Shown: positions 14,802 through 59,258 of the stretch, piece by piece
Numbering within the stretch: the first letter of the stretch is position 1
How the letters are laid out: each line of letters opens with the position of its first letter
Source of the DNA: Fidelibacterota bacterium
GTDB taxonomy: Bacteria > Fidelibacterota > Marinisomatia > Marinisomatales > UBA1611
NCBI GenBank assembly: GCA_016784605.1
Contig: JADHUI010000012.1
Span: 1-64,000, forward strand
Length of the DNA: 64,000 bases
Reading direction: 5' to 3'
The notes under the pieces: generated by a model
Seen by the model: the letters and a program-made list of their open reading frames with translations, nothing else
What the model was told of the DNA's origin: nothing
The model's database searches: none
Translations under genes and position numbers: made by a program

Positions 14802-16106
14802 ATGACAAAAGATTTAAATATTAACGTCCAACATCTCACTCGCGTAGAAGGTCACGGAAATATTGTTGTGAATATGAAGAATGGGAAGTTGGAAAAAGCA
14901 CGACTCGAAATTGTGGAAGCACCTCGTTTCTTTGAAGCGATGCTGAAGGGACGTAGTTTTCATGAAGCCCACATAATTACTTCACGAATTTGTGGTATTT
15001 GTTCCTTAGGGCATCAAATTGCATCGCTTAAAGCCACTGAACATGCATTAGGTTTGGAAGTCTCTGAACAAACAATTTTATTACGAAAACTTCTTATTCA
15101 CGGCGCTACAATTCAGAGTAACATACTCCATGCTTATTTTTTGGCTACACCAGATTTATTAGGTGTTGGATCTGTCTTTCCCCTAATCTCATCCCATAAA
15201 GATGTGGTTGTTAGAGCACTAAGAATGAAAAAGCTCGCCAACGATATCGGGGATACTGTTTCTGGCAGAGCTGTTCATCCCATTACATTGGTCCCTGGTG
15301 GCTTTACTCATATCCCAAGTGTTAAAGAGTTAGAAAATTTAAAAAAACGTCTCGTCGAACAAATGGTGCCTGATGCTTTAAATACGGTAGAAACAATGGT
15401 CGCGTTAGCAGAATCAGTCCCAAGTTTTAATCGAGAAACAGAATATATTTCGCTTCATTCTGATTCAGAATATGCTCTGTATGATGGAGATATATATTCT
15501 TCAGATACGGGACGATCTCCCATTGAAAAATATCTCAATATGACTAATGAATTTGTGGTGCCATATAGTACATCTAAACATGCAAAGCACAATCGCGATT
15601 CTCTGATGGTTGGCGCCTTAGCTCGATGGAATAATAATTATAAACAAATGCATGATATTGCAAAGAATGCTGGATTAAGAATGGGCTTAACCACGCCCTG
15701 CACCAATCCATATATGAATACAATTGCTCAAGTAGCTGAAGCCATTCACTGCACTTTGGATGCGATTGACATTATCGATAGACTGTTATCTAAAGGACTA
15801 AAAAACGAAAGGCCCAATCAGGCGCCGGTCCAATTTGGAACAGGTGTGGCCGCCACAGAAGTCCCGCGTGGCATTCTCTATCATGAATATACTTACAATC
15901 AACAAGGGCAAATTGAAAAAGCCAATTGTATCATTCCTACAGGACAAAATTTGGGAAATATTGACGACGATATGGTAAAACTTGTCCCTGAAATCATTCA
16001 AGAGCCTAAAGAGAAAATTGTCTTAAACTTAGAAATGCTGGTTCGTGCTTATGACCCGTGTATCTCCTGTTCAGTGCATATTTTGGATGTTGATTTCATT
16101 GAATAA
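14802..16106 (+). CDS. hydA: Sulfhydrogenase alpha subunit ([NiFe] large subunit)
   Basis: 434 aa. The N-terminal NiFe ligand motif is RICGICSLGH and the C-terminal one is DPCISCSVH, so all four Cys ligands are present as Cys and not selenocysteine. RVEGHGNI near the start is also typical. The eight residues after SVH (ILDVDFIE) are the expected cleaved tail, and the protease gene follows directly and overlaps. This is the H2-oxidising or H2-evolving site of a group 3b enzyme. Confidence 0.93.
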   Translation: MTKDLNINVQHLTRVEGHGNIVVNMKNGKLEKARLEIVEAPRFFEAMLKGRSFHEAHIITSRICGICSLGHQIASLKATEHALGLEVSEQTILLRKLLIHGATIQSNILHAYFLATPDLLGVGSVFPLISSHKDVVVRALRMKKLANDIGDTVSGRAVHPITLVPGGFTHIPSVKELENLKKRLVEQMVPDALNTVETMVALAESVPSFNRETEYISLHSDSEYALYDGDIYSSDTGRSPIEKYLNMTNEFVVPYSTSKHAKHNRDSLMVGALARWNNNYKQMHDIAKNAGLRMGLTTPCTNPYMNTIAQVAEAIHCTLDAIDIIDRLLSKGLKNERPNQAPVQFGTGVAATEVPRGILYHEYTYNQQGQIEKANCIIPTGQNLGNIDDDMVKLVPEIIQEPKEKIVLNLEMLVRAYDPCISCSVHILDVDFIE

Positions 16107-16587
16107 ATCTATCCATATTATTGGTGCGGGGAATCCTTTCTACGGAGATGATGGCGTCGCACAAGAAGTCATTCGAGAAATGAAATTGTTGCCCACTTCC
16201 ACTAAATTTATCTTCCATGATATCCTTTCCGATCCTTTTGCGCTGTTAGACAAATTTAGTCCCAAAGGGCTAAACATTTTAATCGACGCTGCTCGGATGA
16301 AATCAAAACCTGGAACCATTAACATTTTTTCGCCTGAAGATATTTCTCTCCCCATAAATTGGACTCATTTTTCTCTTCATGGTATTAGTCTTCCTGAAAT
16401 TTTTTCGTTAGCAAAGCAGTTAGAAATATATCCTAAACACTTAATCCTAATTGGCATAGAACCTAGGAATATGGGTATGAACCAACCCTTGTCGAATACG
16501 ATTAAAAAAATAATTCCTGAAATTATCGATAAAATCGAACTGGAGGTAAAAAAGTATGAAAAACACTCAAACTATTCTAATCATTGA
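16087..16587 (+). CDS. Hydrogenase maturation protease (HycI/HyaD family)
   Basis: About 166 aa. It carries GAGNPFYGDDGV, the nickel-sensing protease signature with its acidic ligand, and FSLHGISL with the later conserved His. It removes the C-terminal tail of HydA once the NiFe cofactor is in place. A GTG at 16045 would give a longer form, but family alignment favours ATG 16087 or even TTG 16099 (NKSIHIIGAGNPF). It overlaps the hydA end by about 20 bases and the response regulator start by 32 bases. Confidence 0.85.
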   Translation: MLISLNKSIHIIGAGNPFYGDDGVAQEVIREMKLLPTSTKFIFHDILSDPFALLDKFSPKGLNILIDAARMKSKPGTINIFSPEDISLPINWTHFSLHGISLPEIFSLAKQLEIYPKHLILIGIEPRNMGMNQPLSNTIKKIIPEIIDKIELEVKKYEKHSNYSNH

Positions 16588-16954
16588 TGATGATATTGAT
16601 CTTGTTGAAATATTACGAGTCAACCTTGAACACAACCAATTTAACGTACTTGATGCCCAATCTGGAGAACACGGGATTAAAATTGCAAACGAACTTTCAC
16701 CTGACCTTATCATTCTTGATGTAATGATGGGAAACTTAGATGAAGGGTTTCACACTGCTTACGCGCTTAGACAAAACCCATCAACCCAATTCATCCCCAT
16801 TGTCATGCTTACAGCAATAAGCCAGGAAACAGGCTATTCATTTAGACCTGAAAAAGATGAAGCTTTTCTTCCTGTTGATGAATTTTTGGAAAAACCTGTA
16901 AACCCAGAAAAACTCGTAGATATAATTCGTAAGTATTTACCGGTTTCTGCATGA
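16556..16954 (+). CDS. Single-domain response regulator (REC only)
   Basis: 132 aa, receiver domain only. The acidic pocket is IIDDDID, the phospho-acceptor is D55 in LIILDVMMG, and the Thr and Lys positions are VMLTAI and LEKPV. GGAGG at 16542-16546 precedes the ATG. There is no output domain, so it acts by protein contact or as a phosphorelay intermediate. It overlaps the kinase gene by 4 bases and lies inside the hydrogenase cluster. Confidence 0.85.
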   Translation: MKNTQTILIIDDDIDLVEILRVNLEHNQFNVLDAQSGEHGIKIANELSPDLIILDVMMGNLDEGFHTAYALRQNPSTQFIPIVMLTAISQETGYSFRPEKDEAFLPVDEFLEKPVNPEKLVDIIRKYLPVSA

Positions 16955-18303
16955 GAAATATCGTATCTCCTCCCCCGGAAAGAAGAAATATTCTTTCATC
17001 TTATACATCTCCTGAAACATTAAGGGATAGATCAAATTGGTACATAAAGCTTCGATGGATAGCCATTTTAATTGCGGGAATATTTGTTTTCTCCGGTTCC
17101 CATATTCTCAATCTTCATTTACATTTAACATATCTAACTTGGACTCTTGGCCTTTTATTAATTTTTAATATAGGATATTTTCTTACAAATAAAAAAAGAC
17201 GTGCTTTAGATCGAATCGTGGAATTAGGAATATTAAAATTTCAAATGGTGATGGATTTATTCTTTCTCACAATACTCATGCATCTAACAGGTGGAGTGGA
17301 AAATCCATTTTCGTTCTTTTATTTTATTCATGTTGTGATTTCAAGTATTATTTTCAAAGGAAAAGAAGTCTACCAAATAGCGTTTTTGGCGATCATTCTT
17401 TTTTCCCTTGAAGTTTTGGGCGTTCAATTTGGCTTACTGAATCATTTTCATATTTTAAGTTCAAGCGAACACCTTCATGATCCTGTATATATATATATGG
17501 CACTAAGTGTTTTTTGCTTTGTCATATTATTTACAGCCTTTCTCGCTTCTAATGTTACTTCCAGATATAGAGTCATTCGAGATGAATTAATTCATAAACA
17601 AAAACAACTTATTGTTGCTGATCAAGCAAAACTGGATTTTTTCAGGTATGTAGCTCATGAAATGAAATCGCCCATTGTGACGATTCAATCTGCCCTGGAT
17701 ACGGTTCTTTCACTTTACAAAGAATCATTAAATGAAAAAGCGGATGATTTACTTTCCCGATCGCGTGACCGTTCTCAACAAGTATTGGATACTGTTAAAG
17801 ATATTGTTGATATGACTCAAGGGACAGATGAAAAGCCCCTTCAATTCGCCCCTTGCAATGTGTCACTTTTGATTCAAAATATTCGTGAATCACTTTTGGA
17901 TGAATATGCCATAAAACAACCAAATATTGATTTAAGAATACCAGATGATTTCGAAATGAAAACATATCCAGAACTTTTAGATAAAATAATTTCTAATCTT
18001 TTGTCAAATGCCATTCGATACAGCGATGATAATTGCCAAGTTATCTTAGAATTAATTAAAAATAGCCATGAGATGGAGCTCATAATCGTTGATTTTGGCA
18101 TTGGGATTTCTGAAAATGAAATTCCAATGATATTTGATGATTTTTATCGGACAGCCAAAGCGCGCGAAAAAGAAAAAATTGGAACTGGATTAGGGTTAGC
18201 AATTGTAAAACGCTTTATTGACAAATTAGGTGGATCTATTTTTGTCAATAGCACCCTTAATGAAGGGACAACATTTACCGTTAAATTACCAATTCATGAA
18301 TGA
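16951..18303 (+). CDS. Membrane sensor histidine kinase
   Basis: 450 aa. About six membrane segments span residues 35-200 (for example WIAILIAGIFVFSG and FCFVILFTAFLASNV). A HisKA dimerisation domain has the phospho-acceptor H236 in FRYVAHEMKSPIVTIQ. The HATPase_c domain has N, G1 and G2 boxes (LLSNAIRYS, IVDFGIGIS, GTGLGLAIVKRFIDKLGG). No PAS or periplasmic sensor domain is visible, so the signal is presumably sensed in the membrane. It pairs with the preceding receiver. Its place between hydrogenase structural and maturation genes suggests control by redox state or H2; that is inference. Confidence 0.85.
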   Translation: MRNIVSPPPERRNILSSYTSPETLRDRSNWYIKLRWIAILIAGIFVFSGSHILNLHLHLTYLTWTLGLLLIFNIGYFLTNKKRRALDRIVELGILKFQMVMDLFFLTILMHLTGGVENPFSFFYFIHVVISSIIFKGKEVYQIAFLAIILFSLEVLGVQFGLLNHFHILSSSEHLHDPVYIYMALSVFCFVILFTAFLASNVTSRYRVIRDELIHKQKQLIVADQAKLDFFRYVAHEMKSPIVTIQSALDTVLSLYKESLNEKADDLLSRSRDRSQQVLDTVKDIVDMTQGTDEKPLQFAPCNVSLLIQNIRESLLDEYAIKQPNIDLRIPDDFEMKTYPELLDKIISNLLSNAIRYSDDNCQVILELIKNSHEMELIIVDFGIGISENEIPMIFDDFYRTAKAREKEKIGTGLGLAIVKRFIDKLGGSIFVNSTLNEGTTFTVKLPIHE

Positions 18304-18775
18304 TAAAATTCTCATTGGCGGTGTGATTCATCACCCAAATATGTGTATGCTTGAAATGATCGGTATTCCCAATTCGCCAGGTTCGGCAGGTAGGGCATTT
18401 TCAATATTTGGGAAGAAAAATATATCCCTAGAATTTATAAGTGAAACAGAGGCATGCGATGGATTGAGTAATATTACATGTTGTTTTCATACGAACAAGT
18501 GTGACGTGGCAAAATCGCTTCATTCACCTATTTTAGTAGCAACAAAAGCTCAAAAATTAAAAACGAAATGCCCCGTGGAGATAATTACAATTTATGGACC
18601 CCATTTTGCTTCTAAACCATTAATCGCAGCAAAATTTTGCGAAGCTCTTGGTGCGATGAATATTAATATGCTGGGTATTACAACATCTATTAACTCAATT
18701 ACATGTGTGATTCATTCAGATTATCATGACTTAGCACATAAGGCAATACAAGATAATTTTATATTCCCTCAATAA
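18296..18775 (+). CDS. Stand-alone ACT-domain protein (aspartokinase-ACT-like)
   Basis: 159 aa from ATG 18296, overlapping the kinase stop by 8 bases. Two ACT-like repeats are visible: IGIPNSPGSAGRAFSIFGKK with ISLEFISE, and AAKFCEALGAMNINMLGITTS. These resemble the regulatory tail of lysine-sensitive aspartate kinase, but no kinase domain is present. ACT modules bind small ligands such as amino acids. The ligand and target here are unknown; the gene order implies a role with the two-component pair or the hydrogenase. Confidence 0.7.
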   Translation: MNDKILIGGVIHHPNMCMLEMIGIPNSPGSAGRAFSIFGKKNISLEFISETEACDGLSNITCCFHTNKCDVAKSLHSPILVATKAQKLKTKCPVEIITIYGPHFASKPLIAAKFCEALGAMNINMLGITTSINSITCVIHSDYHDLAHKAIQDNFIFPQ

Positions 18776-18807
18776 AACCTTTCTTTTCTGTAAGTTGACG
18801 CTTAATA

Positions 18808-19149
18808 ATGCATGAAATGACATTAGCGATTAATATTGTAAAAATTGCATGTAAAACCGCAAATCAAAATGGTGCGGATAAAATAAATTCAATAGAGGTT
18901 GAAGTTGGTAAATTAGCGGGCGTATTAGAAGATTCACTTGCTTTTTGTTTCGAAGCAGCCCGAAATAATTCAATCGCTAAAGATGCACAATTGAAAATAT
19001 TAACGATTCCCGGTAAAGCCCACTGTATAGCATGTGATGATTCGTTTGATACTGATACATTTTTTACACTTTGTCCAGAATGTGATGGAATAGCCATTGA
19101 TATTATTCAGGGAAAAGATTTAAGAATTAAATCCATAAATGTTGATTAA
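18808..19149 (+). CDS. hypA: Hydrogenase nickel metallochaperone HypA
   Basis: 113 aa. The N-terminal MHEM nickel site is intact (MHEMTLAINIV). The zinc site is CIACDDSF with FTLCPECDG, two CxxC pairs. HypA delivers nickel with HypB to the large subunit precursor. It starts 32 bases after the ACT gene and ends 11 bases before hypB. No clear ribosome site is visible at its start. Confidence 0.95.
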   Translation: MHEMTLAINIVKIACKTANQNGADKINSIEVEVGKLAGVLEDSLAFCFEAARNNSIAKDAQLKILTIPGKAHCIACDDSFDTDTFFTLCPECDGIAIDIIQGKDLRIKSINVD

Positions 19150-19160
19150 AGGAAAATATT

Positions 19161-19916
19161 ATGTGTGATACGTGTGGATGTGGCAATCCTGATGAACATG
19201 CCACAATTCAAAAACCAAACGAACCTAAGCATAAGCATGAGCATCATGCCCACCAACACAATCACAGCCATAAAATTGATGTGCAAACGGATGTATTAGC
19301 AGAAAATAATCTTTTAGCTGAGCGAAATCGCGGATACTTTGATGGTAAAGAAATTATAGCACTCAATCTTGTCAGTTCACCCGGATCTGGGAAGACAACA
19401 CTTCTGGAAAAAACAATTGTCGCCATCAAACCAAATATAGATATTGCCGTCATTGAAGGCGATCAACAAACCATGCGAGATGCAGAAAGAATTGATAAAA
19501 CCGGCGTTCCCGTGGTTCAAGTTAATACAGGGACAGGATGCCATTTGGACGCACATATGATTCAACATGCTATTGAAGAATTAGATCTGAAAAATCAATC
19601 CATTTTATTTATTGAAAATGTGGGCAATTTAGTCTGTCCTGCTCTATTTGATCTGGGTGAAGCTATGAAAATAGTCATCATCAGCGTTACTGAAGGTGAA
19701 GATAAACCACAGAAATATCCCCATATGTTTGACGCTTCGGATATATGTATTATCAATAAAATCGACCTTCTGCCTTATGTGGATTTTGATGTAGAAAAAT
19801 GTAAGCAATATGCTTTGGAAGTGAATTATCAATTGAAATTCTTCGAACTCTCCGCTAAAACTGGCGATGGCTTAGATGCTTGGATTACATGGTTGAAACA
19901 GCAACAGAAATCCTAA
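19161..19916 (+). CDS. hypB: Hydrogenase maturation GTPase HypB
   Basis: 251 aa. The N-terminus has CDTCGCG (high-affinity metal site) followed by a His-rich run (HKHEHHAHQHNHSHK) that can store nickel. P-loop SSPGSGKTTLLEK, VIEGDQQT and NKIDLLPY mark the SIMIBI GTPase. It drives nickel insertion with HypA. The hypF start lies inside its 3' end in another frame. Confidence 0.95.
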   Translation: MCDTCGCGNPDEHATIQKPNEPKHKHEHHAHQHNHSHKIDVQTDVLAENNLLAERNRGYFDGKEIIALNLVSSPGSGKTTLLEKTIVAIKPNIDIAVIEGDQQTMRDAERIDKTGVPVVQVNTGTGCHLDAHMIQHAIEELDLKNQSILFIENVGNLVCPALFDLGEAMKIVIISVTEGEDKPQKYPHMFDASDICIINKIDLLPYVDFDVEKCKQYALEVNYQLKFFELSAKTGDGLDAWITWLKQQQKS

Positions 19917-22198
19917 CGAAAGATTCACCAAAGATTCTCCGAAAACGGTTTCGGATTAATGGAATCGTCCAGGGCGTCGGCTTCAGACCTTTTATTTATA
20001 ACCAGGCGAATCAATATAAACTTAAGGGCACCGTTTCAAATTCTGCAGATGGGGTCATAATTGAAGTGCAAGGTTTTGGGGAAAATATAGACAATTTCTC
20101 GAATGCTATAAGCAGTGAAGCTCCGCCAATTTCCTTGATATCCAATATCCAAACGAATGAAATTCCTTTGAAAAGTGAATCAAACTTTTCCATCGTTCAG
20201 TCGGAAAAAAACACGTCTATTTCTACGCTCATTTCACCTGATGTGGCTGTTTGTTCAGACTGTGTAGGTGAATTATTAAATCCTAATGACAGACGTTTTC
20301 TCTATCCTTTTATTAATTGCACAAACTGCGGCCCTCGATATACAATAATAGAAAATATTCCATACGACCGCCCTTTTACTTCCATGCGGCATTTTGAATT
20401 ATGTCCAGATTGCCATAATGAATACGATGATCCTAACAATAGACGATTCCACGCTCAACCGAATGCTTGCCCTGATTGTGGACCCCACGTTCAACTGCAT
20501 GATTCTGATGGATCCATAATATCTATCGATAATCCTATACAAGAAACAGTCAAACGCATTTATAATGGGAAAAATATTGCCATTAAAGGATTGGGTGGTT
20601 TCCATTTGGTTGTGGATGCAAGCAATTCCAAAGCAGTAAAGAATCTTCGAAAACGAAAACTCCGGGAAGAAAAACCTTTAGCCATTATGGTAAAATCAAT
20701 CGATGAAGCAAAAATATTTTGCCATATCAATCCGGATGAAGCAAAAGCTTTAAGCTCGATTCAAAGTCCAATTGTTTTACTTAAAAAACGACGAAATATT
20801 CCCATTATTGATGAAGTGGCGCCAAGGAATGACCGCATTGGTATCATGCTACCTTATACGCCTTTACATCACATTCTTTTTCATTATGGTGCTCCACATC
20901 TTATAATGACAAGTGCCAATTTAACTGAAGAACCTATTTGTATCGAAAATGAAGAAGCGTTTTCTCGGTTGAATGGAATTGCAGATTATTTCCTGACCCA
21001 CAATCGTGATATTTACATTCGGTCAGATGATTCTGTCGTAATCCATTTGAATGAAAAGATTCATCCCATTCGCAGGAGTCGTGGATTTGCTCCTAGTCCC
21101 ATATTTGTAAATTCAAAAGGACCCACCGTTTTGGCCGTTGGCGGTGAATTGAAAAATACAGTCTGTCTATTAAAGGATGAAAAAGCGTTTGTTAGTCAAC
21201 ATATTGGCGATTTAGAAAATATGGAAGCCTTTAACTTTTTCACACAAACAATAGATCATTTACAGCGGATTTTTGAGTCCAAACCAGAAAGTATTGCTTA
21301 TGATTTCCACCCAGAATATCTCTCTACAAAATGGGTGAAAGAACAAACGGATATTCCAACATTTGGCATTCAACACCATCATGCTCATTTGGCATCATGT
21401 ATGGCAGAAAATCATTTGAAAGATTCTGTGATTGGCATCATTATGGATGGAACTGGATATGGAACAGATGGAACTATTTGGGGCGGAGAAATATTAATCG
21501 GCGATTATTCAGGATTTCAACGGTTTGCCCATTTTGAGCCCATGCCGCTTCCTGGTGGTGATGCAGCCATCAAAGCACCTTGGCGAACTGCCGTTGCATA
21601 TTTGCAAAAAACTTTTGGTGAATTACCGGATTTACCCTTTATTGAAAATTTGAATTCATCCCCCATTGTGGAATTAATAGAAAAGAATGTGAATTGTCCA
21701 ATTACATCCAGTTGCGGGCGGTTATTCGATGCTGTTGCAGCTATGAGTGGAGGATTACAAACCATTCGATACGAAGGTCAAGCCGCTATAGAGTTTATGC
21801 AAAAATCAAATGATTTAGATGTTCAGCCGTTTGATTTTGACATTAAGCGAATAGATGATATTAGACACATGCTGATTTCACCCATTATTCGCAATGTTGT
21901 AAATGGAATTCAACATGGTGAACCGATCAATCAATTGAGCAATCGATTTCACAAAACACTTATAGATTTATTCGTTCATACCGTCAAAATCGCAAAAGAT
22001 GAAACGGGCATTTCAAACATCGTTTTAAGTGGTGGCGTTTTTCAGAACCATGTGCTTTTTGAAGGAATAATTCCGAAATTGCAATATGAAAATTTTAATG
22101 TATATACTCATAATAAAGTGCCCATGAATGATGGTGGTTTATCTCTAGGGCAAGCAATGATTACACGTAAACAATTAACAAAAGGTGATATAAAATAA
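19889..22198 (+). CDS. hypF: Carbamoyltransferase HypF
   Basis: 769 aa from ATG 19889, chosen over TTG 19880; it overlaps hypB by 28 bases. The N-terminal acylphosphatase domain has GIVQGVGFRPFIY. Two zinc fingers follow (CSDCVGE with CTNCGPR; CPDCHNEY with CPDCGP), then a YrdC-like domain (IKGLGGFHLVVDA) and a C-terminal Kae1-like domain (QHHHAHLASCMAE, GTGYGTDGTIWGGE). It makes the carbamoyl adenylate from which the CN ligands of the NiFe site are built, acting with HypE. Confidence 0.95.
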   Translation: MVETATEILTKDSPKILRKRFRINGIVQGVGFRPFIYNQANQYKLKGTVSNSADGVIIEVQGFGENIDNFSNAISSEAPPISLISNIQTNEIPLKSESNFSIVQSEKNTSISTLISPDVAVCSDCVGELLNPNDRRFLYPFINCTNCGPRYTIIENIPYDRPFTSMRHFELCPDCHNEYDDPNNRRFHAQPNACPDCGPHVQLHDSDGSIISIDNPIQETVKRIYNGKNIAIKGLGGFHLVVDASNSKAVKNLRKRKLREEKPLAIMVKSIDEAKIFCHINPDEAKALSSIQSPIVLLKKRRNIPIIDEVAPRNDRIGIMLPYTPLHHILFHYGAPHLIMTSANLTEEPICIENEEAFSRLNGIADYFLTHNRDIYIRSDDSVVIHLNEKIHPIRRSRGFAPSPIFVNSKGPTVLAVGGELKNTVCLLKDEKAFVSQHIGDLENMEAFNFFTQTIDHLQRIFESKPESIAYDFHPEYLSTKWVKEQTDIPTFGIQHHHAHLASCMAENHLKDSVIGIIMDGTGYGTDGTIWGGEILIGDYSGFQRFAHFEPMPLPGGDAAIKAPWRTAVAYLQKTFGELPDLPFIENLNSSPIVELIEKNVNCPITSSCGRLFDAVAAMSGGLQTIRYEGQAAIEFMQKSNDLDVQPFDFDIKRIDDIRHMLISPIIRNVVNGIQHGEPINQLSNRFHKTLIDLFVHTVKIAKDETGISNIVLSGGVFQNHVLFEGIIPKLQYENFNVYTHNKVPMNDGGLSLGQAMITRKQLTKGDIK

Positions 22199-22200
22199 TT

Positions 22201-22452
22201 ATGTGTTTAGCTATCCCCGGGAAAGTGACAGAAATATATTCTGAAAATGGCATTAAAATGGGAAAAATAGATTATAGTGGCACTATAAATACTGCATGCC
22301 TTGAATATCTCCCTGAAATCAAAGTGGGTCAATACACCCTTGTTCATGCTGGTTTTGCTCTGTCTATCTTAAATGATGATGAAGTTAAAAAATCTTTAGA
22401 TGCTTGGGAAGAGTTAGGCGAAATCATAAATGATATAGACAATAAATCATGA
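22201..22452 (+). CDS. hypC: Hydrogenase assembly chaperone HypC
   Basis: 83 aa beginning MCLAIPGKV, the invariant HypC/HupF start in which Cys2 holds the Fe(CN)2CO unit. It also has HAGFALSIL. It carries the Fe moiety between HypD and the large subunit. Two bases separate it from hypF, and it overlaps hypD by 4. Confidence 0.95.
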
Positions 22453-23540
22453 AATATCTTGATGAATTTCGAGATCCTATTTTAGCCAAGAAAATCCTAG
22501 CTGAAATTCACAAGACGGTGACAAAACCATGGGTGATAATGGAGATTTGCGGTGGGCAAACTCATTCTATTATTCGAAATGGCATTGATCAAGTTTTACC
22601 GAAAGAAATTGAATTGGTTCATGGTCCTGGTTGTCCTGTATGTGTAACGCCACTTGAAATTATTGATAAAGCCATCGCCATCGCCGGAAAGCCAAACGTG
22701 ATTTTTACCAGTTTTGGGGATATGCTTCGAGTTCCCGGGAGCAAGAAAGATTTATTCATGGTCAAATCTGAAGGAGGAGATGTTCGAACCGTTTACTCTC
22801 CTTTGGAAGCATTAACTATTGCCAAAAATAATCCAAAAAAAGAAGTGGTATTTTTTGCTGTGGGTTTTGAAACCACTGCTCCGGGGAATGCTATGGCCAT
22901 ACACCAAGCAGCCAAAGAAGGTATTGCAAATTTCAGCGAATTGGTCAGCCATGTGTTGGTTCCACCGGCTATGGAAGCATTACTATCTTCTCCTGAAAAC
23001 CGTGTTCAAGGTTATTTGGCAGCCGGGCATGTTTGCACGATTATGGGTTGGGAAGAATATGACCCAATTGCAGAAAAATATCAAGTGCCTATTGTTCCAA
23101 CCGGATTCGAGCCAGTGGATGTTTTAGAAGGAATACTTCTAGTCGTTAAACAACTTGAAGAAGGACGATATGAAGTAGAAAATCAATATCTGCGATCGGT
23201 AAAACGAGAGGGAAATCAGCCTGCACAAGAATTAATTTCAAAAATATATAAAATTACAGATAGGAAGTGGCGCGGAATAGGTGAAATACCCCAAAGCGGT
23301 TTATCTATTCGAGAACAATATAGTGCTTATGATGCAAATCTTAAATTTTCTGTTGAAGATATTCAAACAAATGAACCTGAATTATGCATTAGTGGAGTCA
23401 TTCTGCAGGGATTAAAAAAGCCAAACGAATGTCCCGCATTTGGAAAAGAATGCACGCCCACAACACCATTAGGGGCAACCATGGTTTCCAGTGAGGGGGC
23501 ATGTGCGGCATATTATAAATATCAAAGAATGGGAAAGTGA
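22449..23540 (+). CDS. hypD: Hydrogenase iron-cofactor assembly protein HypD
   Basis: 363 aa. Conserved motifs are [30 protein letters not shown] and GHVCTIMG, with C-terminal cluster Cys residues ([20 protein letters not shown]). HypD binds a 4Fe-4S cluster and assembles Fe(CN)2CO with HypC and HypE. The 72-base gap to hypE is the longest within the hyp run and shows no terminator. Confidence 0.95.
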
Positions 23541-23612
23541 AAAATAAATCTCCAAGAAAAAACTTTGCAGAAGATTGAAACTTTCGAAAAGCAATAATGG
23601 GTTTTAAGAAAT

Positions 23613-24659
23613 ATGAAAATTGAAAATTTATCATGTCCTCTGCCAATTATGGATCACAAGACCATTCAGCTGGCACACGGCGCAGGAGGCCAATTATCCA
23701 ACGATTTAATTGATACATTATTCCTACCTCGGTTTTCCAATAAAACATTGAATGCTATGGAGGACCAAGCTGTTTTGGATTTCCCGGGAAAACGTTTATC
23801 TTTTTCTACGGATACTTTTGTGGTGGATCCTATTTTCTTCCCGGGGGGAAATATTGGAGAATTAGCGATCAATGGAACAGTGAATGATGTCGCCATGTGC
23901 GGAGCCAAACCCCTATTTCTAAGTGTGGCATTTATTCTGGAGGAAGGCTTACCTATGGAAGACCTTCACCAAATCTTGATTAGCATGGAAATTGCCGCTA
24001 AAAAAGCAGGCGTTACCATTGTCACTGGAGATACAAAAGTTGTTAATAAAGGAAGTTGTGATAAAATATTTATCAATACTACAGGCATTGGCGTTTTAGA
24101 GTCTGATTTAAATATTGCTTCTAGCCAAATCAAAATGGGTGATAAAATTATTTTATCTGGAACATTAGCTGATCATGGAATGGCTGTTATGACAAGTAGA
24201 GACGGCCTCTCATTTCAATCAAGAGTAAAAAGTGATACGGCAGCGTTAAATGGGTTGATTGATTCTATGCTAAAAGGAAGCAATAATATCCATGCATTAA
24301 GAGACCCAACCCGAGGCGGAGTGGCGACTACGCTCAATGAATTCGCACGTTCATCCAACTTGGGTATATCTTTGATTGAAGAGAATATCCCAGTTAAATC
24401 AGATGTAAAAGGTGCCTGCGAAATTCTTGGGATTGATCCATTATATGTTGCCAATGAAGGAAAACTTATTGCTGTTGTTTCTAATGAAGATGCCCCTAAT
24501 ATTCTTGATGCAATGAAAAACCATCCGTTAGGGAAAGACGCTGTCATCATTGGAGAAGTTGTATCCAATCATCCCGGCATGGTAACGATGAAAACGGGTC
24601 TTGGAGCAAATCGAATTGTAGATATGCCAATCGGAGAACAGCTCCCACGTATATGTTAA
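23613..24659 (+). CDS. hypE: Hydrogenase maturation protein HypE
   Basis: 348 aa. The glycine-rich motif is LAHGAGGQLS, with FSTDTFVVDP, NGTVNDVAMCGA and RDPTRGGVATTLNEFA as in the PurM/SelD-like fold. It ends PRIC, whose C-terminal Cys is the thiocyanate-forming residue. The start could also be ATG 23649. It completes the hypABFCDE set, so nothing essential for NiFe maturation is missing here. Confidence 0.95.
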   Translation: MKIENLSCPLPIMDHKTIQLAHGAGGQLSNDLIDTLFLPRFSNKTLNAMEDQAVLDFPGKRLSFSTDTFVVDPIFFPGGNIGELAINGTVNDVAMCGAKPLFLSVAFILEEGLPMEDLHQILISMEIAAKKAGVTIVTGDTKVVNKGSCDKIFINTTGIGVLESDLNIASSQIKMGDKIILSGTLADHGMAVMTSRDGLSFQSRVKSDTAALNGLIDSMLKGSNNIHALRDPTRGGVATTLNEFARSSNLGISLIEENIPVKSDVKGACEILGIDPLYVANEGKLIAVVSNEDAPNILDAMKNHPLGKDAVIIGEVVSNHPGMVTMKTGLGANRIVDMPIGEQLPRIC

Positions 24660-25384: not shown

Positions 25385-27385
25385 ATGAAAAACATTGTAA
25401 AATTATTCCTTTTTGGATTTCTACTTCAATTTTCACACGGAAAAAACCTTGAAATTGTTTCTTCCACATCATTGTCTAATTTTGAACTATTAGATGTTCA
25501 TATTACTGGTAGTCATGCTTTCATCCCAGGCGGGTTGGGAGGATTAAATATTGTCAATATTTCTCAACCGGATAATATTTCTGTGATAGGCGATTTTTAT
25601 GCAGTCGGTTGTGACTATGGGCGTATCTATTCATGGGTGACGCGTGGGAATTATGCCTATGGGAATGGACGAGAATGTGGCGTACATATTGCCAATATAT
25701 CTAATCTAAGTGATCCAACCCATGTAGGTGTTTACGGAGCTGTCAATACACGATATGAGCATGCATCCATTCAAGAGAATACGCTCTTTTTTTCAACACA
25801 CCAAATGGGAGTGGATGTTGTATCTGCAGAAGATCCAATTCACCTAACTCGTAAAAGTATCATTCAAACACAGAATGCCTGGGCAACGTATCCTGAAGAG
25901 GATTTCTTATATATTGCTGATGGAATGAGTGGTTTAATAATCGCGAATATTTCTGATCTTGAAAATCCGTACATCATTTCTGAAATACCCACAAGTGGAT
26001 CAGCAAAAGATTTGGTTAAAAAAGGAAATTATCTTTTCATGGCTGTGGGAGCGGATGGGGTCGATATGTTTGATGTTTCCAACCCAGAATCTCCTTTGTT
26101 ATTATCAAATTATAATACTTCAGGGTTTGCTACACGCGTTGATGCCAATGATTCTCTTGTTGTTGTCGCTGACTGGGACGATATAGAAGTTTTAGGATAT
26201 GAATCAGGTGAACTCATTTTAAAAGGATATAAAAATACCGGAGGGCGTGTTATGGCAACTGCTATGATAAATAATACAATTTTTTCTGCAGAATGGGCGC
26301 ATTTATCCGTTTTTGAATATAAATCAATTACTGGAGCAGACATGGATATTTCATCCCATCGAGTGGATTTTCCAAGAGTTGGATTAAATGAATCATTGAC
26401 GCTTAATTTTTCCATAGAAAATAATGGAAGTATTCCTCTCGTTATTAATCCTTCAGTATCAAGCAATTCAAACTTTTCTTATGCTTTGGATTATCTGGAA
26501 ATCTATCCGGGTGAATCTAGCCAAGTTCATATCACCTATTCTCCTGAATCATCAAATTGGACAGAAAATATCCTGCTAGAAACGAATGATTACGATGAAA
26601 GTGAATTAACAATTTTCGTCAGGGGGAATTACCCTTACGGCCCTATGCCAGGTGATCCTGCGCCAAATTTTGAATTAGCCAGCGTAAATGAATATGGCCA
26701 TATTTCGAAAAGTGATTTAATGGGATCGCCCACAGTACTCGCCTTTTTTACAGCTTGGTGACCTGTCTGTGCTCCGGAGTTTTCGGACATTGAAATTTCT
26801 ATTTGGCAAGAATACCACGATCGAGGTTTACAAGTGATTGGCATTTCAAATGAACCGCTTGCGGTCATTGAAGATTTTATCGAAGACCAAGGAATTACAT
26901 TCCCTGTCTTACGTGATGATGCTGGCGTTTATAGCCAATTTAATATCCCGGGAAGTCAGAGCCCGTTTCCTCGAGATTATATAATGGATGCTGAAGGAAT
27001 CATTCGCTTAGCTAAAACTGAATATGACCCAGGAGCTATGATTAATATTATTGAAGGACTCTTGGATGAAACCGTTTCAAGTGAAATAGACTTTCCACTT
27101 CCAAACGGGATTAAACTTCTTTCAAATTATCCTAATCCATTCAATCCATCCACAACCATTCAATTTGAAATTGGTTTTACTGATGTAGTGACATTGGATA
27201 TCATAGATTCAATGGGGAGAATCATTCAAACACTCATCCGCGAAAAACAAATTAAGAAAGGGAAACATCAAATTTTATTTCCCGGGCTTGACTCTCAGGG
27301 TAAGCCATTATCTTCTGGTGTGTATTTAGTTCAGCTAAATGCAGGAAAACATTTTGTTACCCAAAAAATAGTCTTAATGAAATGA
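25385..27385 (+). CDS. Secreted LVIVD-propeller / thioredoxin-fold protein with in-frame TGA read as selenocysteine, T9SS cargo
   Basis: 666 aa if TGA 26759-26761 is read through as residue 459. ATG 25385 has a GGAG-type site upstream and a signal peptide (NIVKLFLFGFLLQFSHG). Residues about 30-320 are LVIVD propeller repeats (GGLNIVNIS, GLIIANISDLENP, GVDMFDVSNPES). An Ig-like HYDIN/ASPM-type domain spans about 325-425. A TlpA/AhpC fold at about 430-560 reads FFTAW-TGA-PVCAPEF, where relatives have WCxxC. The T9SS domain starts at about 577 (NYPNPFNPST). The frame stays open and domain-coherent for 208 codons after the TGA, ending in a normal TGA. A secreted selenoprotein is the best reading; a nonsense mutation is the alternative. 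Confidence 0.75.
26773..26787 (+). promoter_or_regulatory. Candidate bacterial SECIS hairpin after TGA 26759
   Basis: UCCG (26773-26776) pairs with CGGA (26784-26787) around a 7-nt loop, GAGUUUU. The loop begins 16 nt after the TGA and its first base is G, within the published loose bacterial SECIS criteria. An alternative stem GUCUG/CGGAC (26765-26769 with 26784-26788) also exists. The stem is short and could arise by chance. Confidence 0.45.
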
Positions 27386-27389
27386 TGTG

Positions 27390-28205
27390 ATGAGGCAAAT
27401 ATTAATACTAATCTATCTATTTCTCCATATCGGGTTTTCCCAAGAATACCAGGTTGGCGACCAACTGACGCTTGAACATCAGAATAGTCCCTTGCCTACA
27501 TGCGCAAATTCTGAAGGAGAAATATTTCTTAGAGATTATAATGGAAATTTAAATGGTGGGCAATACTTCGTAACAATGATAAATACGTTTACATCCTGGT
27601 GCACGTATTGCCAACAAGAAATCCCTCCTGTCAATCAATTATATGAAGAGCAATTTGAGAATGGATTTCGCGTAATTTCATTTGGGCGACAATGGTATGC
27701 CCCTTATAGCTGTGATGAATGGGCAGGTTTGGGTGCAACTTATCCCTTAATTGACGATGATTCTCTCATGGCTTGGTCTTGGTTTGGCCTTGGATATGTT
27801 CCGCAAAATATTATATTAGATCATAACATGGTGGTTCGCTATTCTGCTGTTGGTTACAATCACTCGGAAGTCGAAAGTTTGGTGGTGCAGTACTTGAATG
27901 AACTTCCTTCTGTCTCAACCGCTTCTAAAAATAATCTACCTGAAAGAATCAACATATCTCCAATATTTCCCAACCCATTTAATCCGGTAGCCTCCTTGCA
28001 ATTAAACCTGCATAAAAGAACAGATGTACAATTGATTGTTAGAGATATTTCTGGGAAAAAAGTCGATTCAAACCTGTATGAAAATATGGCGTCGGGTAGC
28101 CATACTATTCGATGGAATTCTGGATATCATTCTTCCGGTATTTATTTCTTCGAAATTTCTATGGAGAATGCATCTCAAATTAGAAAAGGAATCCTAATAA
28201 AATAA
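27390..28205 (+). CDS. Secreted thioredoxin-like (TlpA/AhpC) protein with T9SS sorting domain
   Basis: 271 aa from ATG 27390, 4 bases after the previous stop; a GTG at 27387 is less likely. It has a signal peptide (ILILIYLFLHIGFSQ). A thioredoxin fold carries TSWCTYCQQEIPP with C71 and C74, the normal Cys version of the motif that carries TGA in the gene before. A sorting-like domain starts FPNPFNPVASLQLN and ends RKGILIK. Probably an extracellular or surface thiol oxidoreductase working with its neighbour. Confidence 0.8.
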   Translation: MRQILILIYLFLHIGFSQEYQVGDQLTLEHQNSPLPTCANSEGEIFLRDYNGNLNGGQYFVTMINTFTSWCTYCQQEIPPVNQLYEEQFENGFRVISFGRQWYAPYSCDEWAGLGATYPLIDDDSLMAWSWFGLGYVPQNIILDHNMVVRYSAVGYNHSEVESLVVQYLNELPSVSTASKNNLPERINISPIFPNPFNPVASLQLNLHKRTDVQLIVRDISGKKVDSNLYENMASGSHTIRWNSGYHSSGIYFFEISMENASQIRKGILIK

Positions 28206-28238: not shown

Positions 28239-29267
28239 ATGAAAATATTACTCTTACTATTACTCATATTATTTGGCGCATGCAAAGAAGATGATTTGTT
28301 AGCTTCAGATATTGATTTACAAGATTGCTTGGTCGATGACAATTATATTCGCCAAGGGTGCTTTGCCGGGAAAGATTGTATCCCAAGTTTGGAACATCCG
28401 AATACATCAACCGTTGGCGGAAATAGCCTTGAATTCCTTGATGACAATGATCTGGTTGTGGGAATTTGGGATGGAGAACAATATATGGCATTTCCACACT
28501 CTATTTTAGACTGGCATGAAATAATTAACGAAGATGGATATAGTATTTCCTATTGCCCCCTCACAGGAAGTGCTTTGCATATTGAGACGGAAAGTGCTTT
28601 TGGGGTTTCTGGACTCTTATACAATAGCAATTTAATTATGTATGATCGAGAGTCAGAAAGTCATTGGCCACAAATGTTTCTAAAATCTGCAGAAGGATCT
28701 CGTCAAGGAGATCAACTAAAACTCAAATCAATGATTGAAATGAATTGGGGTACATGGAAAAACTTATTCCCTGATTCCAAGGTCGTCAATTCAAATACTG
28801 GCTATTCCAGGAATTACGATGGCTACCCTTATGGGCAATATCGAACCTGTAATTCTCAAGAATGTGGAGATTATATCTTTTTTCCGATTCCGCCTGTGGA
28901 TGATCGTTTGCCAGCAAAAACACGCGTTATATCCATTATTTCTGAATATACTCAAAAAGCGTATCCCATCAATAATTTTGAAGAACCCACCATCTTGAAT
29001 GAAACAATTGATGGTCTCTTTTTTGCTGTCATACTATCAAGTAATGAAAAAACAGGAGTTGCGTATCAAACCTCATCCGCTTTATCTATTTCAGAATGGG
29101 ATATAGAAAACGGAAACATCATTCTTGAAGATGATGATGGAAATCGATGGAATATTCTTGGGAAATCCATAGATGGAACTTCAAATAATCTTATCCCCGC
29201 AAATGCCTTTATTTCATATTGGTTTTCCCAGGCAGCTTTTTATCCGGATACTGAAATACAGTTATGA
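28239..29267 (+). CDS. DUF3179 lipoprotein
   Basis: 342 aa. GGAG precedes ATG 28239. A lipoprotein signal ends LILFGAC at about Cys15. The DUF3179 signature is clear (SYCPLTGSALHIE, GLLYNSNLIMYDRESESHWPQM). The family occurs in envelopes of marine and FCB bacteria, with no established activity. It contains several Cys residues (DCLVDD, QGCFAGKDC), plausible given two thiol oxidoreductases upstream. It overlaps the next gene by 4 bases. Confidence 0.75.
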   Translation: MKILLLLLLILFGACKEDDLLASDIDLQDCLVDDNYIRQGCFAGKDCIPSLEHPNTSTVGGNSLEFLDDNDLVVGIWDGEQYMAFPHSILDWHEIINEDGYSISYCPLTGSALHIETESAFGVSGLLYNSNLIMYDRESESHWPQMFLKSAEGSRQGDQLKLKSMIEMNWGTWKNLFPDSKVVNSNTGYSRNYDGYPYGQYRTCNSQECGDYIFFPIPPVDDRLPAKTRVISIISEYTQKAYPINNFEEPTILNETIDGLFFAVILSSNEKTGVAYQTSSALSISEWDIENGNIILEDDDGNRWNILGKSIDGTSNNLIPANAFISYWFSQAAFYPDTEIQL

Positions 29268-56756: not shown

Positions 56757-57274
56757 TATTTTTCTCCTAAAAATAAAACAGCGATTTCACGATTAAATGA
56801 TAATCGACCTAAAAGGGGATTTTTATCTCGAATAAAGACGTTATCGCCGCATCTTGCCATCATGTAAACAGCCGTCAGCAAAGAAGATATGCATCCCAAT
56901 CCCGGACTAAATGATCCAAAATCATTAACGACAATTCCCACGGACGGCAAATCATATCCCATTAATTCCTTTGGTGGATTCTTTATCATATCTAACAGTT
57001 CCTTGTGCGGATTATGACACGTCTTTATATAATTAAGATAACTGGAATAATCCTTATCCACGCCTAATTGTGCCATTGCATTGATAATCGGAACAATGTC
57101 TTCATTTTCATGCAAAGGAGGACCCGAATAATAATTGTTCAATGAAAGATCCGTAACGGTACCTGTCAGGTTAATCGGAAGTCTATCTTTTTCAATCCCC
57201 CGTGAATTAACCATAGTCCGGGATCTGCAGCTCATATTCTGAATCAAGTTTGATGAAACGGGTTTTAATTGCAT
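56756..57274 (-). CDS. Unrecognised 172-aa protein of the MoxR/vWA operon
   Basis: 172 aa, no signal peptide or membrane segment. It contains NLTGTVTDLSLNNYY, a central helical part (NYIKTCHNPHKELLDMIKN) and SVGIVVNDFGSFSPGLGC. I do not recognise the family. It overlaps the MoxR gene by 10 bases and touches the vWA gene, so it is translated with both and may be their specific partner or substrate. Confidence 0.6.
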   Translation of the reverse strand: MQLKPVSSNLIQNMSCRSRTMVNSRGIEKDRLPINLTGTVTDLSLNNYYSGPPLHENEDIVPIINAMAQLGVDKDYSSYLNYIKTCHNPHKELLDMIKNPPKELMGYDLPSVGIVVNDFGSFSPGLGCISSLLTAVYMMARCGDNVFIRDKNPLLGRLSFNREIAVLFLGEK

Positions 57275-58659
57275 GTTTTTATCCTTTCTTCAATATCTGC
57301 ACTTACACGATGAACATTGTCCAGCTCAATGTTTTCTTCTTCGATAAAGAATAAAGCTCTTGAAATAGCAATATGGGTAATGAGCTGATCAGAGTCTTTT
57401 AAGTCGGTTTTTGAAATGCCATCATTTAACCTTTGCCAAACTTTCCACCTCGTTGTACCGTTGGAAATAGAAGCGGAAAAATCTTCATGAGCCCCTTTAA
57501 CAATATTAGACTGAATTTCTCCAATCTGTTCTAATACGGATGCGGATACTTTCACGTCCCCTTGAATCAGGCGGGGGAACAGGTGATCTATCCAGCAATA
57601 CCTTTCCAACAGATTTAGCGATGCAAAGCTATCCGCAATTAATTTTGTTAACTCTGTTTTGTTAACGCCAAGTTGAAGCGCCTTTTCAACCTTTTGAATA
57701 GGATCTGTTAAGCGATTGATCTGGGCTTTGGGTGAATTGATATCTAACTTTGTTAATTCGACTGACTTTTTATGTGCCAGAAGGACTTTTGATTTATCGA
57801 TGGGTTTCCCAGCGGCACTATGAGGAAGGCTAAATTGCAATGTTCTTAAAGCAGTTTCTTCCAATACAGGGTTCTGCCCGAGAATGATTTCAGCACTGTA
57901 AAGTGATAGAATATTTTCAAACAGGTATCGGGCCCTTCTTCCCGAAATGGTCAGGCCTGCTTTTTCAAGAAGCGGATTCATATTGATTAAATATTCTGCA
58001 ATCCATGTTTGTTCATTTTTCGGTATACTTGAAATGAATTCATTTACAGTCTGGGTGAGAGTTAATAAATCCATTCCTTTTCTTTTTACATCGTTTCCCA
58101 AAAGAATCTGCCTTTTGGCTTTCTGAGATAAATGAGAATAGCCTGGAACTTCCAGTATAAATTGAAATCGATCGGCCAAGGCCATATCCAAAGACCATGA
58201 GCCTGAGTATAATGGTTCAAAGTCATCTTCCGTATCGGATGGGGGATTCATGGCCGCCCAGCAATGCTTTAAAGACTCAAGTTTGATTCCCTGTATTTTG
58301 TGTTCGTAAACAATTGGGAATACTTTATTCTGAATCTCCGGTCTGGCACGGGAAATTTCATCTAGAAGTATAAATTCAGCGCCCCAGATGGTGCCCGGAG
58401 TCTGAATGAAATCCAATGTTTTATTCTCATTATCCGGAACAGGGTATCCAGCTAAATCATCATAGTTTAATAGACTTGTATTATAATGCCTAAAATCCAG
58501 ATGAACTATTTCCGAAACCTTTTCTGCTAGGAGTGTTTTTGCGCTTCCGTGAGGTCCAATCATTAATAAGGTTGAATTGTTAGATAGAGCAGCCAAGATA
58601 GCAGCGTCTAAATGATCAAGGCCATAAAGTCCAAGTTCTCTTGTTATGTAAGTATTCAT
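57265..58659 (-). CDS. MoxR-type AAA+ ATPase
   Basis: 464 aa from ATG 58659, chosen because AAGGAGATTAAC precedes it; the open frame reaches 58737. Walker A is GPHGSAKT at 35-42, Walker B FILLDEISRARPEIQN, and AAMNPPSD is the sensor 1 region. MoxR ATPases work with vWA-domain proteins to load cofactors or remodel complexes. The C-terminal 150 residues are helical and specific to this subgroup. The vWA partner lies two genes downstream. Confidence 0.85.
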   Translation of the reverse strand: MNTYITRELGLYGLDHLDAAILAALSNNSTLLMIGPHGSAKTLLAEKVSEIVHLDFRHYNTSLLNYDDLAGYPVPDNENKTLDFIQTPGTIWGAEFILLDEISRARPEIQNKVFPIVYEHKIQGIKLESLKHCWAAMNPPSDTEDDFEPLYSGSWSLDMALADRFQFILEVPGYSHLSQKAKRQILLGNDVKRKGMDLLTLTQTVNEFISSIPKNEQTWIAEYLINMNPLLEKAGLTISGRRARYLFENILSLYSAEIILGQNPVLEETALRTLQFSLPHSAAGKPIDKSKVLLAHKKSVELTKLDINSPKAQINRLTDPIQKVEKALQLGVNKTELTKLIADSFASLNLLERYCWIDHLFPRLIQGDVKVSASVLEQIGEIQSNIVKGAHEDFSASISNGTTRWKVWQRLNDGISKTDLKDSDQLITHIAISRALFFIEEENIELDNVHRVSADIEERIKTCN

Positions 58660-58788
58660 GTTAATCTCCTTGTTTATAGGAGATTTGCAGGACTGCATCT
58701 TTGGACCGAAATTGTACTCGGCTAAAGGGTTTAGCACATTTTTTAAGTGGTTGCAATCCTAACAAATCGCCACGTTATTTAATACTGT

Positions 58789-59122: not shown

Positions 59123-59258
59123 AAAAAACCGCCAAACATCAGGCGGTTCATAGTTTTCCTTTCGGACACATCTACCGTTTATGGATCAAACCACCGTGGC
59201 CACTCGGCTCGGTTGGTAGTCTCAATACTTCATTGAGACGTTCCTGATGTTGGTGGAA
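59123..59258 (-). ncRNA. Structured leader with intrinsic terminator (possible attenuator or riboswitch)
   Basis: The transcript runs right to left. In order: AACATCAGG (59243-59251); a perfect 8-bp hairpin GTCTCAAT/ATTGAGAC (59219-59239); a central GC-rich part with GAGTGGCCACGGTGG; then a terminator AACCGCC/GGCGGTT with six Ts (59123-59148). CCTGATGTT in the terminator loop and arm (59135-59143) is exactly complementary to the opening AACATCAGG, so closing that stem would break the terminator. The ATG of the first operon gene lies about 50 bases downstream. It matches no riboswitch class I know. Confidence 0.55.

Follow-up and report, generated by a model that had tools for sequence, protein, structure and literature searches.

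The gene at positions 25385-27385 (plus strand) of the window (the whole stretch of DNA that was analysed, 64,000 nucleotides) most probably encodes a surface redox selenoprotein, in which the in-frame TGA codon at 26759 is decoded as selenocysteine (Sec) by SelB and tRNA-Sec under the direction of a hairpin in the mRNA; the probability of this reading, with the surface location as predicted, is put at about 0.9. The insertion of Sec at residue 459, when judged on its own from the sequence comparisons, can hardly be doubted, and the redox chemistry of the product is likely when judged from its fold and its UxxC motif. The family is genuine and apparently undescribed, it has an unusual architecture, it is predicted to be extracellular and it occurs in an abundant uncultured marine phylum.

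Domain architecture and predicted chemistry

The frame that starts at the ATG at 25385 is unbroken up to its terminal stop codon TGA (27383-27385) except for a single in-frame TGA, codon 459 (26759-26761), in the context FFTAW-TGA-PVC-APE, as is seen in both the sequence and its translation and as had been stated in the preliminary description. When this codon is read as Sec, the gene is complete and its product has 666 residues. Sec459 aligns with the first cysteine of ResA, in agreement with the earlier proposal that the TGA falls where the WCxxC relatives have their first catalytic cysteine, and the resolving cysteine, Cys462 of the UPVC motif (codon at 26768-26770, plus strand), occupies an invariant column of the family alignment.

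All domains are encoded on the plus strand. An apparent signal peptide (about MKNIVKLFLFGFLLQFSHGK, 25385-25444) is suggested by inspection of the sequence and by a helix at residues 2-15 of the structure model, which has low confidence at residues 14-19. It is followed by a β-propeller with an LVIVD repeat (residues ~21-319, 25445-26341; PF08309, 59.4 bits), for which the model is all-β and Foldseek finds propeller matches, and by an Ig-like domain of the HYDIN/DUF1573 type (residues 320-415, 26342-26629; PF22544 and PF07610 above cut-off). The AhpC-TSA or ResA/TlpA-type thioredoxin-fold domain (residues 422-562, 26648-27070) matches PF00578 with 76.8 bits (gathering score 26) and the ResA structures 1st9 and 3c71; this score is obtained with read-through of the TGA, as compared with 39.0 bits for the downstream half alone. 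A type A C-terminal sorting domain of the type IX secretion system (T9SS) is encoded at 27110-27382 (TIGR04183, 38.7 bits against a cut-off of 23; PF18962), and the SprA translocon is found in the genome (739 bits), as expected for T9SS type A cargo. The downstream half thus supplies the rest of the thioredoxin fold and a T9SS domain, just as had been proposed. In the AlphaFold2 model (34 sequences, mean pLDDT 88, pTM 0.78), Sec459 sits just ahead of the helix formed by residues 462-480; the matches of the full model to the PDB found with Foldseek are mostly generic propellers with about 10% identity. Some relatives have a dockerin-type tail instead of the T9SS tail, and surface attachment therefore seems, from these sequences, to matter more than the type of anchor.

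It is proposed that the hairpin at 26773-26787 directs the decoding of TGA 26759 by SelB and tRNA-Sec, and that the 666-residue product, carrying its apparent signal peptide, would leave the cell through the T9SS and remain on the outer membrane or beyond it. Its proposed function at this location is that of a thiol/disulfide oxidoreductase or thiol peroxidase working through a selenol, in which a reductase, an isomerase or a peroxidase role is conceivable; Sec459 would be the nucleophile and Cys462 the resolving residue of a selenenylsulfide cycle, and the β-propeller and the Ig domain may bind a partner or hold the thioredoxin domain at the surface. It is quite possible, if on balance doubtful, that the main role of the thioredoxin fold at the surface is that of a thiol peroxidase or oxidant detoxifier and not of a disulfide oxidoreductase, which is compatible with the insertion of Sec. 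The domain scores on both the ResA and the thiol peroxidase models, the U-PVC-xPE motif resembles the T-PVC-TTE motif of peroxiredoxins, and the Trp that precedes Sec is replaced by G, M or N in many members of the family. Nevertheless, the best solved relatives are oxidoreductases of the ResA/TlpA type, and Sec is found at the first and not at the peroxidatic position.

Conservation of the TGA codon and of the frame beyond it

A full-length search covered 298 relatives, including 245 genomes of the phylum Neomarinimicrobiota. About 46 matches in these relatives span the site at E <= 1e-60, and each of them has exactly one internal stop codon, which is TGA. In all 48 in-phylum genes that cover the site (the window gene counted), codon 459 is TGA and the motif U-P-[VA]-C-[AGSI]-P-E-[FL]-S-D is preserved. 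A scan of the genomes of 84,980 species gave 34 loci, all with TGA; seven of these are outgroup-type sequences from records that are not labelled Neomarinimicrobiota (one being from Krumholzibacteriia), again with TGA in all seven, and selA is present in the four outside-phylum family genomes that were tested. In total, 55 genes from several lineages have TGA at codon 459 together with an intact downstream frame. A Cys orthologue was found neither in the 245 genomes of the phylum nor in the scan of the 84,980 species' genomes, and a scan of viral contigs found no relative of the gene.

A strong selA match is present in 43 of the 47 family genomes, compared with 134 of the 198 other genomes of the phylum (Fisher p = 0.0009, relatedness being ignored); of the remaining four, three have no match and one has only a weak match, which is compatible with incomplete genomes. 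One family copy (G141) is split across two frames upstream of the TGA site. A further locus (L072, G072:C8:21234-21953) covers residues 13-241 only and ends before the site, with no downstream remainder found nearby; it is a probable pseudogene.

It is very improbable that the TGA is a genuine stop codon or a recent nonsense mutation, with a truncated propeller/Ig protein as the product and the downstream part being either a remnant or a gene of its own that begins with GTG 26834. TGA is indeed a normal stop codon in this genome, ending 12 of the 46 ORFs of the window, the selenoprotein gene included, and the program-made ORF list does cut the gene at its active site, giving a separate ORF with a GTG start at 26834-27385. 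This ORF, however, has neither the active site nor a signal peptide, the break in the thioredoxin domain would coincide exactly with its catalytic residue, and the same TGA codon with an intact downstream frame recurs in the 55 genes. The frame beyond the TGA is open for 207 codons, whereas it is open for at most 44 codons beyond the stop codon of the other TGA-ending ORFs (comparison over the 12 such ORFs of the window). Moreover, dN/dS is about as low downstream as upstream of the TGA. When the window gene is compared with the relative closest to it (68% identity), dN is 0.21 and dS is 1.78 upstream, and dN is 0.27 and dS is 1.23 downstream, with values of 0.11 and 1.00 for the downstream thioredoxin part; 14 further comparisons are alike, with dS near or at saturation in many of them. 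As judged by these substitution rates, the downstream half is kept as protein under purifying selection, as is the upstream half. Standard gene callers would truncate the protein at the active site, and its catalytic half is therefore likely to be missing or mis-annotated in the databases.

The downstream hairpin and the selenocysteine machinery

The preliminary description had also pointed to a candidate SECIS hairpin with a loop G after the TGA. This hairpin (26773-26787, plus strand) has a TCCGG/TCGGA stem (arms 26773-26777 and 26783-26787) and an AGTTT loop (26778-26782), and its assignment as a bSECIS element is based on invariant synonymous sites, pair counts and a covariance model. The interval 26759-26787 is exactly the TGA plus the hairpin, and the apical loop lies 16 nt past the TGA. 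The element satisfies the published rules for bSECIS elements (upper stem of 4-16 bp, spacing of 16-37 nt and a minimum free energy of at most -7.5 kcal/mol; PMC13188914), having a 5-bp stem, a 5-nt loop (with G second, then U), a spacing of 16 nt and a minimum free energy of -8.5 kcal/mol over the 34 nt that follow the TGA. Folding of the single sequence is unremarkable and not significant (z = -1.25); the evidence for the hairpin comes from the comparison between genomes rather than from folding alone.

The consensus TCCGG-AGTTN-TCGGA is shared by the family members, and the 48 in-phylum genes do not differ in the nucleotides CCGGAGTT.TCGGA, even at codon positions where the genetic code leaves a choice. 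Pro464 is CCG in 48/48 genes (CCG makes up 21% of the Pro codons in the rest of the same genes), Glu465 is GAG in 48/48 (30% elsewhere) and Ser467 is TCG in 48/48 (10% of Ser elsewhere), whereas the third base of Pro460, next to the Sec codon, varies freely (T19/A9/C11/G9).

Further comparison is possible with the family of the next gene (27387-28205, plus strand), a thioredoxin-fold/T9SS paralogue which reads WCTYC, has no hairpin and is the ordinary Cys version that had been noted at this place; its relatives are often Sec forms. In this family, 38 of the 63 matches in relatives have an in-frame TGA, the position of which was checked for the extracted ones only. Repeated switching between WUxxC with the hairpin and Cys without it is seen in this paralogue (the window copy, L023, L031, L033, L035 and L075-L086), and the tree requires about five changes between Sec and Cys, of which at least four are forced by well-supported branches. 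When both families are taken together, a hairpin with all five register pairs is found in 55 of 60 Sec forms and in none of 14 Cys forms. Across 70 aligned Sec elements of both families, pairing is observed in 92% of the cells and changes on both sides in four of the six pairs; most of this covariation reflects a single divergence of one family from the other, L083 having changed separately from C-G to U-A, and it does not represent many events. Sliding the pair partners abolishes the pairing signal, RNAalifold recovers the same helix, and paralogue L086 is off the hairpin register. Because the pairing tracks the Sec forms and is absent from the Cys forms, including the neighbour in the window, the hairpin is tied by these alignments to the decoding of UGA and not to the protein sequence. 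The switching neighbour provides a natural experiment for defining the minimal SECIS.

The source genome (2.17 Mb, 46 contigs, draft, 89% complete) contains selA (524 bits), selB (344 bits) immediately downstream, selD (404 bits), which has its own in-frame TGA within a GUACK motif, and a canonical tRNA-Sec with anticodon TCA (58 bits against the Rfam gathering score of 47), so that the genome-wide search that had been suggested found all four components. Among the near-hits to the Rfam tRNA-Sec model, those examined as other UGA-reading tRNAs proved to be ordinary tRNAs for Ser, Leu, Cys or Phe. This genome is likely to encode two other selenoproteins: a Bcp-type peroxiredoxin (L054, C22:46595-46933), whose in-frame TGA falls at the U of TxxU (STPGU), and a UshA-like PCGU protein (L051:1878-2978, contig C45), which adjoins a TlpA-like gene and scores below the cut-off of NF041198. 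The covariance model scores the window site at 57.5 bits, the model containing the window sequence so that this match is not independent, and the next match in the genome at 14.3 bits; no second strong hairpin site is found by it in the genome, so that the other likely selenoprotein genes would use different SECIS sequences. In a table published in 2016 (PMC5029168 Table 1), single-cell genomes of SAR406 (Marinimicrobia) and KSB1 appear among the 'orphan SelD' organisms, for which no selenium trait was known. Since selA is widespread across Neomarinimicrobiota genomes, incomplete genomes are the likely reason for this listing.

There is only a very small chance that UGA stands here for Cys or Trp, through a changed tRNA or a partial shift of the code. 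Cys would suit the active-site position, but the UGA-reading tRNA that is found is the canonical tRNA-Sec, above the Rfam cut-off, selA, selB and selD are complete, the hairpin accompanies the Sec forms only, and the role of TGA as the stop codon of 12 of the 46 window ORFs, this gene among them, excludes a global recoding, as had been argued before. A sequencing or assembly artefact at a TGC or TGT codon, for which the draft state of the genome could be invoked, can be dismissed, the same codon and hairpin being present in dozens of independently assembled genomes and the synonymous sites around the TGA being invariant. Clearly, the grounds for doubt named in the preliminary description do not apply: the machinery is present, the homologues that cover residue 459 all have TGA there with no Cys orthologue among them, and the gene has not decayed.

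Locus and comparison with known systems

Downstream of the paralogue lies a gene for a DUF3179 protein (28239-29267, plus strand; PF11376, 225.6 bits), which is a recurrent neighbour and is here without Sec. In several relatives, the selenoprotein gene is followed by the thioredoxin/T9SS gene and then by the DUF3179 gene, and an in-frame TGA is found in none of the DUF3179 neighbours. Upstream of the selenoprotein gene, at 14802-24659, the window encodes the large subunit of a NiFe hydrogenase and the maturation proteins HypF, HypD and HypE; a SAM-I/IV riboswitch (55 bits, 59141-59255, minus strand) precedes the minus-strand ORF at 57265-58737. In the relatives, the TGA-containing thioredoxin-fold proteins L145, L148, L149 and L158 (~505-530 residues), with dockerin-like and T9SS parts, are likely to be another surface selenoprotein family.

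For most selenoproteins, Cys homologues of the whole protein exist (PMC12013277). No such homologue of the window protein is present in the genomes searched, which raises the question of why Sec is indispensable. One speculative and rather unlikely answer is that the phylum runs an extracellular selenol redox system, made up of the obligate-Sec propeller/thioredoxin protein, the Sec-or-Cys thioredoxin/T9SS partner and the DUF3179 protein, which would not draw on the usual supply of electrons from the inner membrane and would need selenium because Cys fails in the reaction.

A 2026 catalogue describes 119 prokaryotic selenoprotein families (PMC13188914), including a Prx-like UxxC class and thiol-disulfide isomerase (TlpA-type) entries with UxxC or UGC; the propeller/Ig/thioredoxin/T9SS architecture has no entry in it, and no relevant report of a selenoprotein with LVIVD repeats or type IX secretion was found in the open-licence literature. 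The nearest known class is the Prx-like thiol:disulfide oxidoreductase (UxxC, PF00578; PMC13188914 Table 1; 'Prx-like 1' or 'Trx-like 1' of the GOS data, PMC2398784), which likewise is an AhpC-TSA domain with Sec for the first Cys of CxxC. This class is defined by the domain alone; in the window family, the domain is joined to a propeller, an Ig domain and a tail of the T9SS or dockerin type, and no Cys orthologue is found in the genomes searched. GOS reads contain Prx-like selenodomains fused to unknown domains (PMC2398784), so that fragments of the window family may be included in those counts already, with a generic name.

The UxxC motif is shared with the Omp28-related selenoprotein (NF045500; GOS_C), but the window protein gives no match to this model; the relatives' paralogue L145 (510-530 residues) matches it partially, below the cut-off. 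The TxxU motif of Sec-peroxiredoxins is also absent, the window motif being UPVC with Sec three residues before Cys, and a separate TxxU peroxiredoxin is encoded in the genome. DUF3179 and DUF1573 are both catalogued selenoprotein families (PMC13188914 Table 1), the former being a frequent neighbour here and the latter resembling the Ig domain; the difference is that neither the DUF3179 neighbours nor the window Ig domain has an in-frame TGA.

ResA and TlpA (PDB entries 1st9, 3c71 and 2ls5) share with the window protein the thioredoxin fold, the position of the first Cys, which corresponds to Sec, and the SPxP sequence at the cis-Pro site. They differ from it in that the window protein has Sec for Cys, is multi-domain and is predicted to be exported beyond the outer membrane, and its score with the ResA model (NF002854) is 51.6 bits against a cut-off of 170, so that it is related to ResA but is not a ResA. 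The LVIVD repeat and the propeller are shared with the choice-of-anchor B surface proteins, with different C-terminal anchors (T9SS here, dockerin elsewhere), the score with TIGR04312 being 24.3 bits against a cut-off of 100. The earlier suggestion of a new type of selenoprotein is thus upheld as far as the architecture and the targeting to the surface are concerned, whereas the redox domain is a member of the broad UxxC Prx/TlpA-like class that has already been catalogued (PMC13188914).
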